DNA of 64,000 nt from Pseudoclavibacter sp. AY1F1. GTDB taxonomy: Bacteria; Actinomycetota; Actinomycetes; Actinomycetales; Microbacteriaceae. Positions within the stretch are counted from its first letter, which is position 1. Every line of letters begins with the position of its first letter. A program made the position numbers and the translations under genes. The stretch lies in NCBI RefSeq assembly GCF_002931075.1, contig NZ_PSTQ01000001.1, positions 434,001 to 498,000 on the forward strand, read 5' to 3'. Positions 7,516-45,629 of this stretch are shown piece by piece. The notes under the pieces were generated by a model that saw nothing but the letters and a program-made list of their open reading frames with translations, had not been told where the DNA came from and did not search any database.

Positions 7516-8805
7516 TTACGCGCGAAGCGAGTCGAGGGCCTGCGAGAGGTCCGCGATGAGGTCGTCCACGTTCTCGAGGCCCACGGAGAGGCGCACGAGG
7601 CCCGGGTTGATGCCCGAGGCGAGGAGCTGCTCTGGCGTGAGCTGCGAGTGGGTCGTCGACGGCGGGTGCACGATGAGGCTTCGCACGTCGCCGATGTTCG
7701 CGAGGTGGCTGAAGAGCTTGACCCGCTCGACGAGCTTGCGGCCCGCTTCGACGCCGCCACGCAGTTCGAACGACAGGATGGCGCCGGCGCCGTTGGGGGC
7801 GTAGCGCTGCGCGAGTGCGTTCCACGGGCTCGACTCGAGGCCGGCGTAGTTCACGTTCTGCACCTCGGCGTGGCCCTGCAGCCAGCCAGCGATGGTGGTG
7901 GCGTTGGAGACGTGCCGCTCCATGCGCAGGCTGAGGGTCTCGACGCCCTGGAGGATCTGCCATGAGGATGCAGGCGCGATGGACGCGCCGATGTCGCGTA
8001 GCAGCTGGACGCGCGCCTTGGTGTGGAAGGCGTTGGCGTTGCCGAGCGCGCCCGTGTAGCTGAGGCCGTCGTAGCTCGGGTCGGGCTCGGAGAGGCCGGG
8101 GAAGCGGTCCTTGTGCTCGTCCCAGGCGAAGGTGCCGCCGTCGACGATGACGCCGCCGATGACGGCGCCGTGGCCGCCGAGGAACTTCGTCGCGGAGTGG
8201 ACGACGATGTCCGCTCCGTGCTCGAACGGACGGATGAGGAATGGGGTCGCGATGGTGTTGTCCACGATGAGCGGCACCCCGACCTCGTGGGCGACGTTCG
8301 CGACGGCCTCGATGTCGAGGATGTTGACGGCGGGGTTGCCGATCGTCTCGCCGAAGAAGAGCTTCGTGTTGTCCTTGGCCGCCGCCCGCCACGCGTCCGG
8401 GTTGTTCTGGTCCTCGACGAAGGTGACGTCGATGCCGAGCTTCGCGAACGTGTACTTGAAGAGGTTGAACGTGCCGCCGTAGATGGAGGTCGATGACACG
8501 ATGTGGTCGCCGGCACCCGCGATGTTGAGGATCGCGAAGGTCTCGGCCGCCTGACCGGAGGCGAGGGCGAGGGCTCCGCTGCCACCTTCGAGGTCAGCGA
8601 TGCGTGCTTCGAGCACTGCGGTCGTCGGGTTCGTGATGCGCGTGTAGATGTTGCCGGCGCGCGAGAGGGAGAAGAGGTCGGCCGCGTGCTGTGCGTCGTC
8701 GAACACGTACGAGGTCGTCTGGTAGATCGGGGTGACGACGGCGTTGGTCGTCGGGTCAGGGGCGGAACCGGCGTGGATCTGCCTGGTCTCGAAGCTCTGG
8801 GTCAT
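7516..8805 (-). CDS. metY: O-acetylhomoserine aminocarboxypropyltransferase (sulfhydrylase)
   Basis: 429 residues, Cys/Met metabolism PLP enzyme. It has the expected length, IYTRITNPTTAVLEARIADLE near the substrate/PLP site, and the PLP-binding Lys207 in HSATKFLGGHG. It condenses O-acetylhomoserine with sulfide to give homocysteine. The ATG has a strong GGAGG site upstream. The gene leads a metY-metX operon. The ~130-base leader holds two hairpins that share a strand just before the ribosome binding site, suggesting regulation at the leader. The name is more likely MetY than MetB or MetZ because of the length and the metX partnership. Confidence 0.92.
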   Translation of the reverse strand: MTQSFETRQIHAGSAPDPTTNAVVTPIYQTTSYVFDDAQHAADLFSLSRAGNIYTRITNPTTAVLEARIADLEGGSGALALASGQAAETFAILNIAGAGDHIVSSTSIYGGTFNLFKYTFAKLGIDVTFVEDQNNPDAWRAAAKDNTKLFFGETIGNPAVNILDIEAVANVAHEVGVPLIVDNTIATPFLIRPFEHGADIVVHSATKFLGGHGAVIGGVIVDGGTFAWDEHKDRFPGLSEPDPSYDGLSYTGALGNANAFHTKARVQLLRDIGASIAPASSWQILQGVETLSLRMERHVSNATTIAGWLQGHAEVQNVNYAGLESSPWNALAQRYAPNGAGAILSFELRGGVEAGRKLVERVKLFSHLANIGDVRSLIVHPPSTTHSQLTPEQLLASGINPGLVRLSVGLENVDDLIADLSQALDSLRA

Positions 8806-21596: not shown

Positions 21597-22391
21597 GTGA
21601 TGCGAAAGATCGAATCTGCCATTGACCTCGAACTCGACGGGGAAGCCGACCTCGTGTTCTCGATTGCCGCCCACACCTTGGCGAACCTCGAGAGCGAGAC
21701 GTTCACGATCACGGGGGACGGGCAGCCGCTGGACGTGATCGAGTCGATCGACCGCTCAGAGTGCCGCCTGCACCGCGTGACGACGTCCGCGAAGCACATC
21801 GAGATGCGGTACAGCGCGACCGTGCTCGACCGCGCGCAGCCGAACGAGCCGGAAGAGCTCGACCTCATCCAGTTCCGCCGCCCGTCTCGCTACGCGGAAT
21901 CGGATCTTCTCGGCCCGACGGCGCGTTCGATGTTCCGCGGCAAGCAGGGTTTCGAGCTCGTCGACGCGGTTGTCGATTGGGTCTCGCGGAACATCAGCTA
22001 CGTGCCCGGGTCGAGTGCCCCCACCGACGGAGCCCGCGACACGTTCCTCAAGCGCCAGGGCGTCTGCCGTGACTTCGCCCACCTCACGATCGCGTTCCTG
22101 CGCGCCAACGACCTGCCGGCCAGACTCGTGTCCGTGTACGCGCCCGGCCTCGTGCCCATGGACTTCCACGCCGTCGTCGAGGTGCTCGTCGACGGGGCAT
22201 GGTACGTCGTCGATGCGACGCACCTGGCACCCCGCCGTCTCATGCAGCGCATCGCGAGCGGACGGGACGCGGCCGACACCGCCTTCCTCAGCAACACCAT
22301 CGCGAACCTCCGCCTCTCGAAACTCCACGTGAACGCGACGTCGAGCGAGGTCATCCTCGAGGACTGGACCGAGCGGGTCCAGCTGGGCTGA
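21597..22391 (+). CDS. transglutaminase-like family protein
   Basis: 264 residues. The C-terminal half is a transglutaminase-core cysteine-peptidase fold: Cys in RQGVCRDFAHLTIAFLRA, His in MDFHAVVEVLVDG and Asp in WYVVDATH. The first 130 residues form a beta-rich domain typical of bacterial transglutaminase-like proteins. It is probably a cytosolic peptidase or amidase; substrate unknown. Start: GTG 21597 fits a leaderless transcript from CACAAT, and ATG 21600 is the alternative. A hairpin terminator separates it from argS. Confidence 0.8.
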   Translation: MMRKIESAIDLELDGEADLVFSIAAHTLANLESETFTITGDGQPLDVIESIDRSECRLHRVTTSAKHIEMRYSATVLDRAQPNEPEELDLIQFRRPSRYAESDLLGPTARSMFRGKQGFELVDAVVDWVSRNISYVPGSSAPTDGARDTFLKRQGVCRDFAHLTIAFLRANDLPARLVSVYAPGLVPMDFHAVVEVLVDGAWYVVDATHLAPRRLMQRIASGRDAADTAFLSNTIANLRLSKLHVNATSSEVILEDWTERVQLG

Positions 22392-33412: not shown

Positions 33413-34015
33413 TTAGATCTCGTAGTAGCCGATGAGGTCCTGCTCTGCCGCCGTGCGCTGCCGGATGCGGGCGGGTACACCGGTGAGGACAGAGTTCGCG
33501 GGAGCGTCACGGGTGACAACCGCGTTTGCCCCGACCCTGGAGTCGTCGCCGACAGTGATGTTCCCGAGGAGCTTCGCCCCGGCCCCGATGAGCACGCGGC
33601 TGCCGACGGTCGGGTGTCGTTTCACCCGGTCGCCCGACGTGCCACCGAGCGTGACGCCGTGGTAGATGAGCACATCATCCCCGACGATGGCAGTTTCGCC
33701 GATGACGATCCCCATGCCGTGGTCGATGACAACCCTGCGACCGATCTCGGCACCGGGGTGGATCTCCACGCCGGTCGCGAAGCGATTGAACTGGGACAGC
33801 GTGCGTGCAAGGAGTTTCGTGCCGGGGCGCTGCCAGAGGCGATGCGCGATGCGGTGCAGCCACAGGGCGTGGAGTCCCGAGTAGTTGATGACGATCTCTG
33901 CCTTGGAGCGCGCGGCCGGGTCGTTCTTCCGCGTCGCCGCGATGTCTTCCCTGACGCGACGCCAAACGCCGACACCTTGAGGTGCCGGCGTTCGACGTGG
34001 TGTTGCAGTCGTCAC
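33413..34015 (-). CDS. cysE: serine O-acetyltransferase
   Basis: 200 residues. The left-handed beta-helix hexapeptide repeats run through [41 protein letters not shown], with the catalytic His in IDHGMG. The short form (EpsC type) lacks most of the E. coli amino-terminal domain. It makes O-acetylserine from serine and acetyl-CoA for CysK. The GTG start is 3 bases after the cysK stop, so translation is coupled. The cytosolic pair may form the cysteine synthase complex; the C-terminal ending GYYEI has the terminal Ile that docks into CysK. Confidence 0.94.
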
Positions 34016-34018
34016 TCG

Positions 34019-34954
34019 CTAGTCGCGCAGATCGTCGAAGAGCACGGTGGACAGGTAGCGCTCGCCGGTGTCGCAGATGATGACGACGATGTTCTTGCCA
34101 GCGTTCTCGGGGCGCTTCGCGACCTCGAGGGCTGCCCAGAGGTTCGCGCCGCTCGAGATGCCGCTGAAGATGCCCTCGGTCGAGGTGAGGGCGCGCGAGA
34201 CCCGAATGCTGTCTTCGAGGGTCGCGTCCAGGACCTCGTCGATGACGTCGCGGTCAAGCACATCAGGGACGAAGTTGGCGCCGAGACCCTGGATCTTGTG
34301 CGGGCCAGCCTTGCCTTCGGTCAGGAGGGGGGAGTCTTTGGGCTCGACCGCGACGATCTTCACGCCGGGCTTGCGCTCCTTGAGCACCTGCCCGACTCCG
34401 GAGATGGTGCCGCCCGTGCCGATGCCGGCAACGAAGATGTCGATATCGCCGTCGGTGTCGGCCCAGATTTCCTCGGCCGTCGTCTCGCGGTGGATCTGAA
34501 CGTTCGCTTCGTTCTCGAACTGCCTCGCGAGAATCGATCCAGGCGTCTCCGCGACGATCTCCTTCGCGCGGGCAACCGCACCGCGCATGCCCTCGGGGCC
34601 AGGCGTCAGGACGAGCTCCGCGCCGAACGCCTTCAGTAGCTGGCGGCGCTCAACGGACATCGTCTCCGGCATCGCGAGGATGACGCGGTAGCCGCGCGAT
34701 GCGCCGAGCATCGCGAGAGCGATGCCGGTGTTGCCCGACGTGCCCTCGACGATCGTGCCACCTGGCTGCAGCTCGCCACTCTGCTCTGCAGCACGGATGA
34801 TGCCGAGGCCGAGTCGGTCCTTGACCGAGGAGCCAGGACCGAAGTACTCGAGCTTCGCGAAGATGTTTGCGCCTGTGTCGTTGATGCGACCGAGCTTGAC
34901 GAGCGGGGTGCGGCCGACGACTTCGGTGATGTCGTTGTAGATCTTTCCAGTCAC
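34019..34954 (-). CDS. cysK: cysteine synthase A (O-acetylserine sulfhydrylase)
   Basis: 311 residues, fold type II PLP enzyme. PLP-binding Lys45 is in PGSSVKDRLG, the substrate loop is EGTSGNTGIALAM and the phosphate-binding loop is GIGTGGTISGVG. It makes cysteine from O-acetylserine and sulfide. The GTG start has GAAGGG 7 bases upstream. It leads cysK-cysE and is divergent from prmC, with 134 bases between. I see no recognisable operator in that gap. Confidence 0.95.
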   Translation of the reverse strand: MTGKIYNDITEVVGRTPLVKLGRINDTGANIFAKLEYFGPGSSVKDRLGLGIIRAAEQSGELQPGGTIVEGTSGNTGIALAMLGASRGYRVILAMPETMSVERRQLLKAFGAELVLTPGPEGMRGAVARAKEIVAETPGSILARQFENEANVQIHRETTAEEIWADTDGDIDIFVAGIGTGGTISGVGQVLKERKPGVKIVAVEPKDSPLLTEGKAGPHKIQGLGANFVPDVLDRDVIDEVLDATLEDSIRVSRALTSTEGIFSGISSGANLWAALEVAKRPENAGKNIVVIICDTGERYLSTVLFDDLRD

Positions 34955-35088
34955 TTCGTGCCCTTCTGGGATGCTGTGTGAACTTCGTGGGTGTCGCTGG
35001 CAGCGTTCGCCCGCGTCAATCGTCCCAATGATCTCGCACGCGAATGCTGTGCATGACGCCGCGAGTCAATGTGCGGGAGACTCTATCC

Positions 35089-36924
35089 ATGATCTTGCAC
35101 GTAGAAGCGCAGAGAAAGCTGGTTCGCGAACAGCTGAAGGCAGCTGGCATCCCCGCCGACGCAGTAGAGGCCGACCTGTTGCTCGCCGGAGTGCTCGGCA
35201 TCTCAAGAGGAGAGGTGCAGATGCGTTCGCTTCTCGGCCGCGAGATGACCGAGCGCGAGGCGATCGACGTCGCCGCCGCGTCCACAAGGCGGGCTCGTAG
35301 GGAGCCACTGCAGCACGTGCTCGGTGCTGCGCCGTTCCTGGACATGGAGCTCGCCGTGGGTCCGGGAGTATTCGTCCCGAGACCAGAGACGGAATCGCTG
35401 GTCACGTCCGCCCTCGAACTGATCAAGGATCGGGCGCCACGGGGAGAGCTGGCTGGCGTCGACGTGGGCTCCGGAAGCGGCGCAGTTGCACTTGGCGTTG
35501 CCCGAGGGAACGGGCGCATCCGGATGACAGCGATCGAAGCATCCAGCGCGGCGTGGCCCTGGCTGCGCGCCAACGTCGAGACCTACGGGGACGGGACCGT
35601 CGCCACGTTCTTCGGGGAGGCATCCCGCGCCTTCTCCGGCATTGCCGCCGAGTCGCTCGATCTGGTCATCTCCAACCCGCCATACGTGCCGGCCGAGAAT
35701 CGACCGGAAAGCCGGGAAGTCTGGCGGCACGACCCGGCCGAGGCACTGTATTCGGGCGCCGATGGACTCGACTTCATTCGGGAACTCGCGATCTGGTCCT
35801 CGGCCTCGCTGCGCCCCGGGGGTGTGCTGATCATCGAGCACGAGGACACGCAGGGGGCGGAGATCCGCCAGATCTTCACAGCTGCAGGCTTCACGGAGGC
35901 GGCGACAGCGGAGGACCTCACGGGGAGGGACCGGATCACTTCGGCGGTGCTCCCCGCGTCTGGCCGGGGCGGCGACGGCCAGCCGACTATCATGGAGCAA
36001 AGAATGGGACAGATCTACGCCACCACAGACTCACTCGACCTCCTGGCAGCGGTCCGTGCGGCACGCACGGCCATCGCGAGCGGCGAGGTCATCGTCATGC
36101 CGACCGACACGGTCTACGGCATCGCAGCTGACGCTTTCTCGGCTACCGCGGTCCAGCGTCTGCTCGACGCGAAGGGCCGCACGCGGGCAACCCCGCCGCC
36201 TGTCCTCGTCGCGAACCACGAGACCCTCGACGCTCTCGCCGAGAACGTTCACCCGCTTGCCCGTGAGCTGTTCCAGCGCTTCGCACCTGGGCCACTCACT
36301 GTCATCCTGCAGGCCAGGGGATCACTGCAATGGGACCTCGGCGAGACGAACGGCACCGTTGCGCTGCGAATCCCCGACAGCCGTCTCGCTCGCGAGCTGC
36401 TGAAGGAGACGGGGCCCCTCGCGGTCTCGAGCGCCAACAAGCACGGTCAGCCGGCAGCAACAACCGCAGAGGAGGCCCTCGAGGCCCTCGGCGAGGTCGT
36501 CGGTGTCTTCCTCGACGGAGGTCCGGCCGGGGGAGAGCCGTCGACGATCGTCGACGCTACTCCACTGACTCGCGGCGAGCCCGCCCGCATCGTTCGCCAG
36601 GGTGCGCTCTCGCGGGACCTGATCGAGGAGGTCCTCGGGGACAAGCTCGCCGCGTTCGAAGCGCCAGAGCCTGGGCCGGAAGCCGCGTCAGCGGTTGAGG
36701 CGGACTCGGCGGGGACTGACTCGGTGGAGACTGGCTCAGTAGAGACTGATTCAGTTGAGGCCGATTCAGTTGAGGCCGAGTTATCAGTTGAGGCCGAGGC
36801 ATCCATCGAGACCGGTGCCGGGACCGCGTCCACAGCGACCGACACCGCCCCTGACACCGAGCCCGAGGCAGACGGTGGCACGTCGCCTGCCAAGCCCTCG
36901 TCACTGACGGAGCGCGAGTCGTAG
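35089..36924 (+). CDS. prmC: PrmC-TsaC/Sua5 fusion: release factor glutamine methyltransferase plus tRNA threonylcarbamoyl-AMP synthase
   Basis: One continuous frame of 611 residues holds two normally separate proteins. Residues 1-~290 are PrmC: a helical amino domain (LLAGVLGISRGEV), SAM motif VDVGSGSGAVALGVA and catalytic NPPYVP (~194-199), which methylates the GGQ Gln of release factors. Residues ~306-520 are a YrdC/Sua5 domain (GEVIVMPTDTVYGIAADAF, PGPLTVILQA, NGTVALRIPDS, GPLAVSSANKHG) that makes threonylcarbamoyl-AMP for tRNA t6A. The last ~90 residues are acidic repeats. The start ATG 35089 has GGGAG 9 bases upstream; ATGs at 35044 and 35053 are alternatives. A good internal ribosome binding site precedes Met306, so TsaC may also be made alone. 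wecA starts 1 base after the stop. Confidence 0.88.
   Translation: MILHVEAQRKLVREQLKAAGIPADAVEADLLLAGVLGISRGEVQMRSLLGREMTEREAIDVAAASTRRARREPLQHVLGAAPFLDMELAVGPGVFVPRPETESLVTSALELIKDRAPRGELAGVDVGSGSGAVALGVARGNGRIRMTAIEASSAAWPWLRANVETYGDGTVATFFGEASRAFSGIAAESLDLVISNPPYVPAENRPESREVWRHDPAEALYSGADGLDFIRELAIWSSASLRPGGVLIIEHEDTQGAEIRQIFTAAGFTEAATAEDLTGRDRITSAVLPASGRGGDGQPTIMEQRMGQIYATTDSLDLLAAVRAARTAIASGEVIVMPTDTVYGIAADAFSATAVQRLLDAKGRTRATPPPVLVANHETLDALAENVHPLARELFQRFAPGPLTVILQARGSLQWDLGETNGTVALRIPDSRLARELLKETGPLAVSSANKHGQPAATTAEEALEALGEVVGVFLDGGPAGGEPSTIVDATPLTRGEPARIVRQGALSRDLIEEVLGDKLAAFEAPEPGPEAASAVEADSAGTDSVETGSVETDSVEADSVEAELSVEAEASIETGAGTASTATDTAPDTEPEADGGTSPAKPSSLTERES
35988..36006 (+). promoter_or_regulatory. 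internal start region for a separate TsaC/Sua5 product
   Basis: Within the fused frame, GGAG (35994-35997) is 6 bases before an ATG at 36004 whose product would begin MGQIYATTDS, the usual beginning of Sua5-type proteins. A TATCAT hexamer at 35988-35993 could also act as a -10. Both would give a free 306-residue TsaC. Confidence 0.55.
36718..36795. repeat. 15-bp tandem coding repeats in the fusion protein tail
   Basis: Five degenerate units (four of 15 bp, the last 18 bp) encode DSVET, GSVET, DSVEA, DSVEA and ELSVEA. Units three and four (GATTCAGTTGAGGCC) are identical. The stretch has more A/T than its surroundings. Confidence 0.85.
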
Positions 36925-41238: not shown

Positions 41239-41290
41239 GCCTCACGCACTGAAACTCTCGGGGCGAGGCCCCGGACGACAAGGGAAGAAC

Positions 41291-42916
41291 ATGTCAGAAC
41301 TCACAATCAATCCGGATGAGATCCGCGACGCGCTTCAGCAGTTCGCTTCCTCATACCGTCCGGAAGGCGCCACGGCGACCGAGGTCGGCACCGTGGTTGA
41401 CGCCTCGGACGGCATCGCGCACGTCGAGGGTCTCCCTGGCGTCATGGCCAACGAGCTCATCACCTTCGCGGATGGCACACTCGGCCTCGCGCAGAACCTC
41501 GACGAGAGCAGCATCGGCGTCATCGTCCTGGGCGAGTTCCAGGGCATCGTCGAGGGCATGGAAGTCCGCCGCACCGGCGAGGTCCTGTCCGTTCCCGTCG
41601 GCGAGGGCTACCTCGGCCGCGTCGTCGACCCGCTCGGCAACGCAATCGACGGACTCGGCGAGATCGCCACGTCCGGCCGTCGCGCTCTTGAGCTCCAGGC
41701 GCCCGGCGTCATGGACCGCAAGTCGGTGCACGAGCCGCTCGAGACCGGCATCAAGGCGATCGACGCGATGATCCCCGTTGGCCGTGGCCAGCGCCAGCTC
41801 ATCATCGGCGACCGCCAGACCGGCAAGACGGCGATCGCGATCGATGCGATCATCAACCAGAAGGCCAACTGGGAGTCCGGAGACGTCAACAAGCAGGTGC
41901 GCTGCATCTACGTTGCCGTCGGCCAGAAGGGCTCGACCATCGCCTCCGTCAAGGGCGCGCTGGAAGACGCCGGAGCCATGGAGTACACGACCATCGTCGC
42001 GTCCCCCGCCTCCGACCCCGCCGGCTTCAAGTACCTCGCTCCATACACGGGCTCGGCCATCGGCCAGCAGTGGATGTACGAGGGCAAGCACGTCCTCATC
42101 GTCTTCGATGACCTGTCGAAGCAGGCTGAGGCCTACCGTGCCGTTTCGCTCCTCCTGCGCCGCCCGCCGGGCCGCGAGGCCTACCCGGGCGACGTGTTCT
42201 ACCTGCACTCCCGCCTCCTCGAGCGTTGCGCGAAGCTGTCCGACGCGATGGGAGCAGGTTCGATGACCGGTCTTCCGATCATCGAGACCAAGGCCAACGA
42301 CGTCTCGGCGTACATCCCGACCAACGTGATCTCGATCACCGACGGCCAGATCTTCCTGCAGTCCGACCTCTTCAACGCCAACCAGCGTCCAGCGGTCGAC
42401 GTCGGTATCTCCGTCTCGCGAGTCGGTGGCGACGCGCAGCAGAAGCACATCAAGAAGGTCTCTGGAACGCTCAAGCTCGAGCTGGCCCAGTACCGCTCGC
42501 AGCAGGCATTCGCGATGTTCGCGTCCGACCTCGACGCGACGACGCGCAAGCAGCTCGAACGTGGCGCACGCCTCACCGAGCTCCTCAAGCAGCCGCAGTA
42601 CTCGCCGTACCCCGTCGAGCAGCAGGTCGTCGCGATCTGGGCTGGCACGAACGGCAAGCTGGACCTGGTCCCGGTTGACGAGATCCTGCGCTTCGAGCGC
42701 GAGCTCCTCGAGTACCTCGAACGCAACACCGACGTCCTCGGCCTCCTCCGCGACAGCGGAAAGCTCGAAGACGACACGCTGAAGGCCATGGCCGACGGTG
42801 TCGACGCCTTCTCGAAGACGTACCTCAAGAACGACGGAACTCCGCTCGTCGCTAGCGCCGAACAGGTCGCCGCTGACGAGATCGAGCAGGAGAAGATCGT
42901 CAAGAAGCGCCGCTAG
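41291..42916 (+). CDS. atpA: F1Fo ATP synthase subunit alpha
   Basis: 541 residues. The start ATG ([11 protein letters not shown]) has AGGGAAG upstream. The Walker A is [10 protein letters not shown] near 172-180, [12 protein letters not shown] follows and the ATP synthase signature is [14 protein letters not shown]. It is a non-catalytic nucleotide-binding subunit of F1. It lies 52 bases after atpH. Confidence 0.98.
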
Positions 42917-42954
42917 GCGCCCTCGACGACTTCGACGACGAGCACAGGAGAAGC

Positions 42955-43851
42955 ATGGGAGCACAACTTCGGGTCTACCGGCAGAAGATCAAGTCTGCCC
43001 AGACGATGAAGAAGGTCACCCGCGCCATGGAGCTGATCGCCACTTCGCGCATCACCAAGGCGCGGAAACGCATGGCCGAGTCGAACCCGTACGCGCAGGC
43101 GATCACCGAGGCAGTCTCGGCTGTCGCCAGCTACACGGACATCGATCACATCCTCGTCACCGAGCGTGAAGAGGTCCGCCGTGTCGCGGTCGTCGTCTTC
43201 ACGAGCGACCGAGGCCTCAACGGAGCCTTCTCCTCGAGCGTTCTGCGCGAGGCCGAGGGCCTGACGAACGCGCTCGAGGCTGAGGGCAAGGAAGTTGTCC
43301 ACTACCTCATCGGTCGCAAGGCAGTGGGCTACTTCGCCTTCCGCAAGCGTGCGAGCGAGAAGCAGTGGACGGGTTCCACCGACCTCCCGGTCTTCCAGAC
43401 CGCGAAGGAGCTCGGCGAGGCACTGGTAGAGCGGTTCACGATTCCGTTCGAAGAAGGCGGCGTGGAGGAGATCCACTACGTCTACAACCGGTTCCAGTCG
43501 ATGGTCACGCAGACACCGACCGTCGTGCGGCTCCTGCCGCTCGAGGTCGTCGAAAGCGACGATGTCGCCGAAGAGGCCCCGCTGCTCCCGCTGTACGAGT
43601 TCGAGCCGGATGCGGAGACGGTGCTCCACGCACTGCTCCCCGACTACATTCAGGCGCGACTCTTCAACGCCATGCTGCACTCCGCCGCATCCGAGCACGC
43701 TGCCCGCCAGCGCGCCATGAGCGCGGCTTCCGACAACGCAGACACCCTGGTGCGCGACTACACCAGGCTCGCGAACAACGCGCGCCAGGCAGAGATCACG
43801 CAGCAGATTTCCGAGATCGTGGGCGGCGCGGACGCGCTCGCAACCGCATAA
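42955..43851 (+). CDS. atpG: F1Fo ATP synthase subunit gamma
   Basis: 298 residues. It begins [33 protein letters not shown], the rotor helix, and ends with the second rotor helix ([46 protein letters not shown]). It is the central rotating shaft of F1. It sits 38 bases after atpA, with AGGAG ahead of the ATG. Confidence 0.98.
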
Positions 43852-45348
<1,497 letters not shown>

Positions 45349-45350
45349 TC

Positions 45351-45629
45351 ATGGCAGGCAAGGGCGAACTGACCGTCAAGGTCGTTGAAGCAACCAAGCT
45401 CGTCTGGGAAGGCAGCGCGACCATGGTCGTCGCTCGCACTTCTGAGGGCGAGATCGGAATCCTCTCCGGCCACGAGCCTGTGCTCGCTGCCCTGGGTGCC
45501 GGCCAGGTTCGCATCACGGCCTCCGACGGATCGAAGATCGTCGCCAACGCTGAGGGTGGCTTCCTCTCGGTGAACAGCGACGTCGTCACTGTCGTCGCTG
45601 GCGAGGCTGAACTCGTCTCCGGGGAGTGA
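45351..45629 (+). CDS. atpC: F1Fo ATP synthase subunit epsilon (short form)
   Basis: 92 residues from ATG 45351, 2 bases after atpD. Only the amino-terminal beta-sandwich is present (ELTVKVVEATKLVWEGSATMVVARTSEGEIGILSGHEPVLAAL). The C-terminal helical pair of ~40 residues that inhibits ATPase activity in E. coli is missing. Short epsilon subunits are usual in this group, so this is not a truncation by mutation. The TGA overlaps the yaaA GTG. Confidence 0.95.
   Translation: MAGKGELTVKVVEATKLVWEGSATMVVARTSEGEIGILSGHEPVLAALGAGQVRITASDGSKIVANAEGGFLSVNSDVVTVVAGEAELVSGE

Follow-up and report, generated by a model that had tools for sequence, protein, structure and literature searches.

The genes for release factor glutamine methyltransferase (prmC) and L-threonylcarbamoyladenylate synthase (tsaC) form one stop-free reading frame in a Pseudoclavibacter relative of the Microbacteriaceae (genome of 4.1 Mb in 29 contigs, 100% complete). 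Comparison with related genomes makes it likely, in our judgement, that this is a young fusion created by loss of a stop codon, and that a PrmC-TsaC fusion protein would be made from the prmC transcript and free TsaC from an internal promoter. The frame occupies positions 35089-36924 of the plus strand of the stretch of DNA analyzed here (64,000 nucleotides, hereafter the window), runs through PrmC and then TsaC, and is also open from an ATG at 35044. A preliminary description had placed both enzymes in one 611-residue frame, and this was borne out: the frame is free of stops, both halves exceed the NCBIfam cut-offs of their families, and Met306 lies at 36004.

The prmC part (35089-35994, plus strand) scores 207.3 bits with TIGR03534, a narrow margin over the curated equivalog cut-off of 199.1 (NCBIfam), and 48.8 bits with the N-terminal family PF17827 (PrmC_N). 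Its NPPY methyltransferase motif, at residue 196, and its DVGSGSG and PRPET motifs are intact. The Met codon at 35992-35994 (plus strand) is the final prmC codon in sister species, in which the next codon is a stop. The tsaC part (36004-36924, plus strand), with a free start at the ATG at 36004, scores 162.9 bits with TIGR00057 (curated equivalog cut-off 123.2, NCBIfam) and 162.7 bits with PF01300, and its key motifs are likewise intact. It includes a variable acidic C-terminal tail, in which 15-nt tandem repeats (36703-36797) encode SVETD-like sequence whose length and composition differ greatly between species. By family match, the PrmC part is predicted to methylate the GGQ glutamine of release factors and the TsaC part to synthesize threonylcarbamoyl-AMP for t6A. 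Relative to P. helvolus, both parts are under purifying selection, with pN/pS of 0.19 for prmC and, once the first 37 codons are set aside, 0.04 for tsaC. Since the frame is the sole PrmC above cut-off and the sole strong TsaC match in a 100% complete genome, the organism depends on it for both activities. A second, weaker Sua5/YrdC-family protein is encoded elsewhere (L002, G000:C23:405269-405757); with a PF01300 score of just 53.7 bits and a divergent, paralogue-like sequence, it was rejected as a second TsaC and probably has another role. The interval from prfA, a release factor gene, to prmC contains a serine acetyltransferase-like and a cysteine synthase-like gene (33413-34954, both on the minus strand). 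An Rfam search of the window for an RNA family at the locus matched solely a tRNA elsewhere in the window.

An AlphaFold2 model of the fusion, built from 35 sequences (mean pLDDT 83.3, pTM 0.57), shows two mostly confident domains joined by a disordered linker with pLDDT below 50 (residues 292-306; 35962-36006, plus strand). A second low-confidence stretch, residues 200-222, directly follows the NPPY motif. The sequences of the two halves match those of solved HemK and threonylcarbamoyl-AMP synthase structures. A disordered linker could invite cleavage, such that the fusion is made and then cut into PrmC and TsaC, leaving the cell contents as in the sister species; this is improbable in our estimation, as the idea has no positive support and no cleavage signal was recognised.

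The origin of the fusion can be read from related genomes. The search covered nine other genomes of the genus, of which four close ones give a gap-free alignment across the junction: G063 (P. helvolus), G065 (sp. RFBB5), G067 (P. terrae) and G064. All four share the locus, the gene order, and the tsaC promoter and start with the window, and their TsaC proteins are 92-95% identical to that of the window. As the preliminary description had said of relatives, prmC and tsaC are adjacent, separate genes in these four sisters, and an in-frame prmC stop lies six bases before the tsaC ATG. At the aligned codon (35995-35997, plus strand), P. helvolus has TAA and the remaining three sisters have TGA; the window has no stop there. 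The junction reads TATCATGTGACGAAGAATG or TATCATGTAACGAAGAATG in the sisters and TATCATGGAGCAAAGAATG in the window, a difference of three substitutions from P. helvolus and four from the other sisters, all within five bases. On this alignment, the fusion is a case of stop-codon loss through at least three clustered substitutions, not through an indel. Across 396 genomes of the order, among the matches listed, every place spanning both domains contains at least one stop, the window excepted.

These data also bear on the reliability of the frame. An assembly indel at the junction, which the preliminary description had named as a possible artifact, is an unlikely source of the difference, since the alignment is gap-free and the species differ by three to four substitutions within five bases. 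Base errors concealing a sister-like stop, so that the strain has no fusion, appear very improbable: a stop occupies the aligned codon in all four closest species, and just one genome of the species has been seen, but such an artifact would require several independent errors clustered within five bases and no indel. The assembly is complete and little contaminated, and it contains the locus as a single copy, matched exactly once. The fusion is thus very likely real at the DNA level. A second genome of the species was not found in the collections searched; the fusion is known from one genome and may be a strain variant.

The second element of our interpretation concerns the hexamer TATCAT (35988-35993, plus strand), which the preliminary description had correctly reported as kept. 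It is identical in all five species and conforms to a family-wide TANNNT pattern, which we interpret as the -10 box of a near-leaderless tsaC promoter. Of 45 distinct tsaC genes from the Microbacteriaceae, 43 have a TANNNT motif 5-11 nt before the start; 2000 shuffles gave 1.7 on average and never more than 7. A TANNNT motif near the start codon has been described as marking leaderless genes in Actinobacteria (PMC3160421), and the main -10 motif of Mycobacterium tuberculosis is likewise TANNNT (PMC3898074). Gaps of 9 and 10 nt between motif and start are the commonest in the family, and the predicted 5' leader is therefore just a few bases long. The same follows for the window, where the gap is 10 nt and the distance from the first T to the start is 16 bp, compared with the published leaderless peak at ~12 bp (PMC3160421). 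A search at tsaC for a sigma-70 consensus promoter, -35 box included, found none; M. tuberculosis promoters also lack a conserved -35 motif (PMC3898074). The conserved signal is thus likely to be an internal promoter yielding a near-leaderless tsaC mRNA, and not an old ribosome binding site. In two other members of the genus (L037 and L038), the prmC stop TAG itself falls within TAGACT, the predicted -10 box of tsaC, and the one hexamer may serve both functions. A plausible path, reconstructed by inference alone, would start with drift from a TAG-type to a TATCAT-type -10 box; this would have shifted the prmC stop downstream, to the position at which the window lineage then lost it.

Further indications of a tsaC start came from an invariant block at the 5' end of the gene (36000-36113, plus strand), in which the five species, window included, agree at 113 of 114 positions. 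Silent divergence is 0-0.07 in the first 37 tsaC codons and 0.23-0.54 downstream of them, and 23 of 25 four-fold sites are invariant in these codons compared with 24 of 114 elsewhere in tsaC (Fisher p ~3e-11). The predicted transcription start lies close to the beginning of the block. Conserved RNA structure within it gave no fold signal (z -0.30 and -0.22), and an overlapping gene was provisionally rejected as the cause: in an alignment read by eye, the window's stop in the other frame is not kept in one sister. Nor is the block unique. Strong silent-site conservation across the five species is also seen at the 5' ends of genes at 7760 and 16758 (minus strand) and at 21597, 27724, 30210 and 57051 (plus strand), and in the ATP synthase genes (41282-45629, plus strand), which are frozen for longer; the longest invariant run in the window is 268 nt (42854-43121). 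Many window genes that look operon-internal have 5' ends free of silent-site constraint. As a sequence signature, the frozen block supports the view that the tsaC start is genuine and in use within the clade. It does not by itself prove that free TsaC is made in the window strain, because the loss of the stop may be too recent for decay to have occurred.

That consideration leads to a rather unlikely alternative, in which PrmC-TsaC is the only product of the frame and the internal promoter and start survive as undecayed relics. The conserved tsaC 5' sequence could indeed be inherited and not yet decayed, and two fusions outside the genus fit a single product. MPN362 of Mycoplasma pneumoniae, which like the window frame combines both enzymes in the same order in one stop-free frame, is a HemK-YrdC/Sua5 fusion of which a C-terminal FLAG tag revealed full-length protein only on a blot, and a distant actinobacterial family has a tight fusion with no Met at the junction. 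However, the window shows the same constraint on the -10 box and the first 37 tsaC codons as the species with separate genes. Conservation of the promoter and start makes dual output the preferred interpretation: free TsaC probably continues to come from the internal promoter, and the PrmC-TsaC fusion from the prmC transcript. We infer that both proteins are produced and active, whereas the open frame, the sister stops, the conservation of the -10 box and the silent-site constraint are direct observations.

Under the dual-output reading, the ancestor would have had prmC followed, six bases past its stop, by an in-frame tsaC with its own promoter, the -10 box lying inside the last prmC codons. 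In the window lineage, clustered substitutions would have erased the prmC stop, so that the prmC transcript would be read via the flexible linker of ~15 residues into TsaC; separate PrmC is therefore not expected. With TATCAT and the tsaC ATG kept, a near-leaderless mRNA would still yield free TsaC. The preliminary description had also envisaged both a fusion and free TsaC from one frame. Its dual-product idea is supported by the comparison; the mechanism it proposed, a preserved ribosome binding site, gives way to a predicted internal promoter. The sequence in question, a Shine-Dalgarno-like GGAG (35994-35997, plus strand), is present six bases before the ATG as described, but it is absent from the four sisters and was thus wrongly called preserved. 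As judged from the alignment, it is new in the window lineage, having arisen through the very substitutions by which the stop was lost. The predicted anti-Shine-Dalgarno duplex is -5.6 kcal/mol in the window vs -1.8 to -4.2 kcal/mol in the sisters. Since GGAG lies upstream of the predicted tsaC transcription start, it could act solely on the long prmC transcript, where it would perhaps aid a free TsaC start. We tentatively suggest, as a possibility short of an even chance, that the locus captures a fusion soon after its birth, with an embedded promoter giving both fusion and free TsaC and with the stop-erasing substitutions having also created a ribosome site for the downstream start.

The PrmC-TsaC architecture is already known, with what appear to be at least three origins. 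In M. pneumoniae the Sua5 part of MPN362 is reported as the essential part; unlike the window frame, MPN362 is an established fusion of which only the full-length product was detected, and the part of the source consulted does not report a conserved tsaC promoter of the window kind (PMC12494982). A sample of the phylum Actinomycetota contained two further stop-free PrmC-TsaC fusions, and in the distant family to which these two belong, that of G502, 12 of 18 genomes carry one (L136-L147). Of three fusions from this family scored against NCBIfam, all are well over the PrmC cut-off and have TsaC scores of 112.7-125.2 bits, around the cut-off of 123.2. They have the same domains as the window in the same order in one stop-free frame; their junction is tight, their TsaC part lacks a starting Met, and the arrangement is common to many genera, whereas the fusion in the window is confined to its lineage and retains its linker, start and promoter. 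The bifunctional PrmC/TrmB protein (NF002421) also joins PrmC to another translation-related enzyme, but the partner is a different one, and the window protein scores 56.5 bits against its cut-off of 567. The window fusion is a young, separate case that keeps a nested promoter and start.

The fusion would bring release-factor methylation and t6A synthesis together in one polypeptide, convergently with Mycoplasma. It also suggests a natural series for the fusion of adjacent bacterial genes, from separate genes in which the promoter of the downstream gene extends into the end of the upstream one, through stop loss with the downstream start kept, to the tight, fixed fusion with no internal start of the distant actinobacterial family. 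Such a series makes the steps of gene fusion testable.
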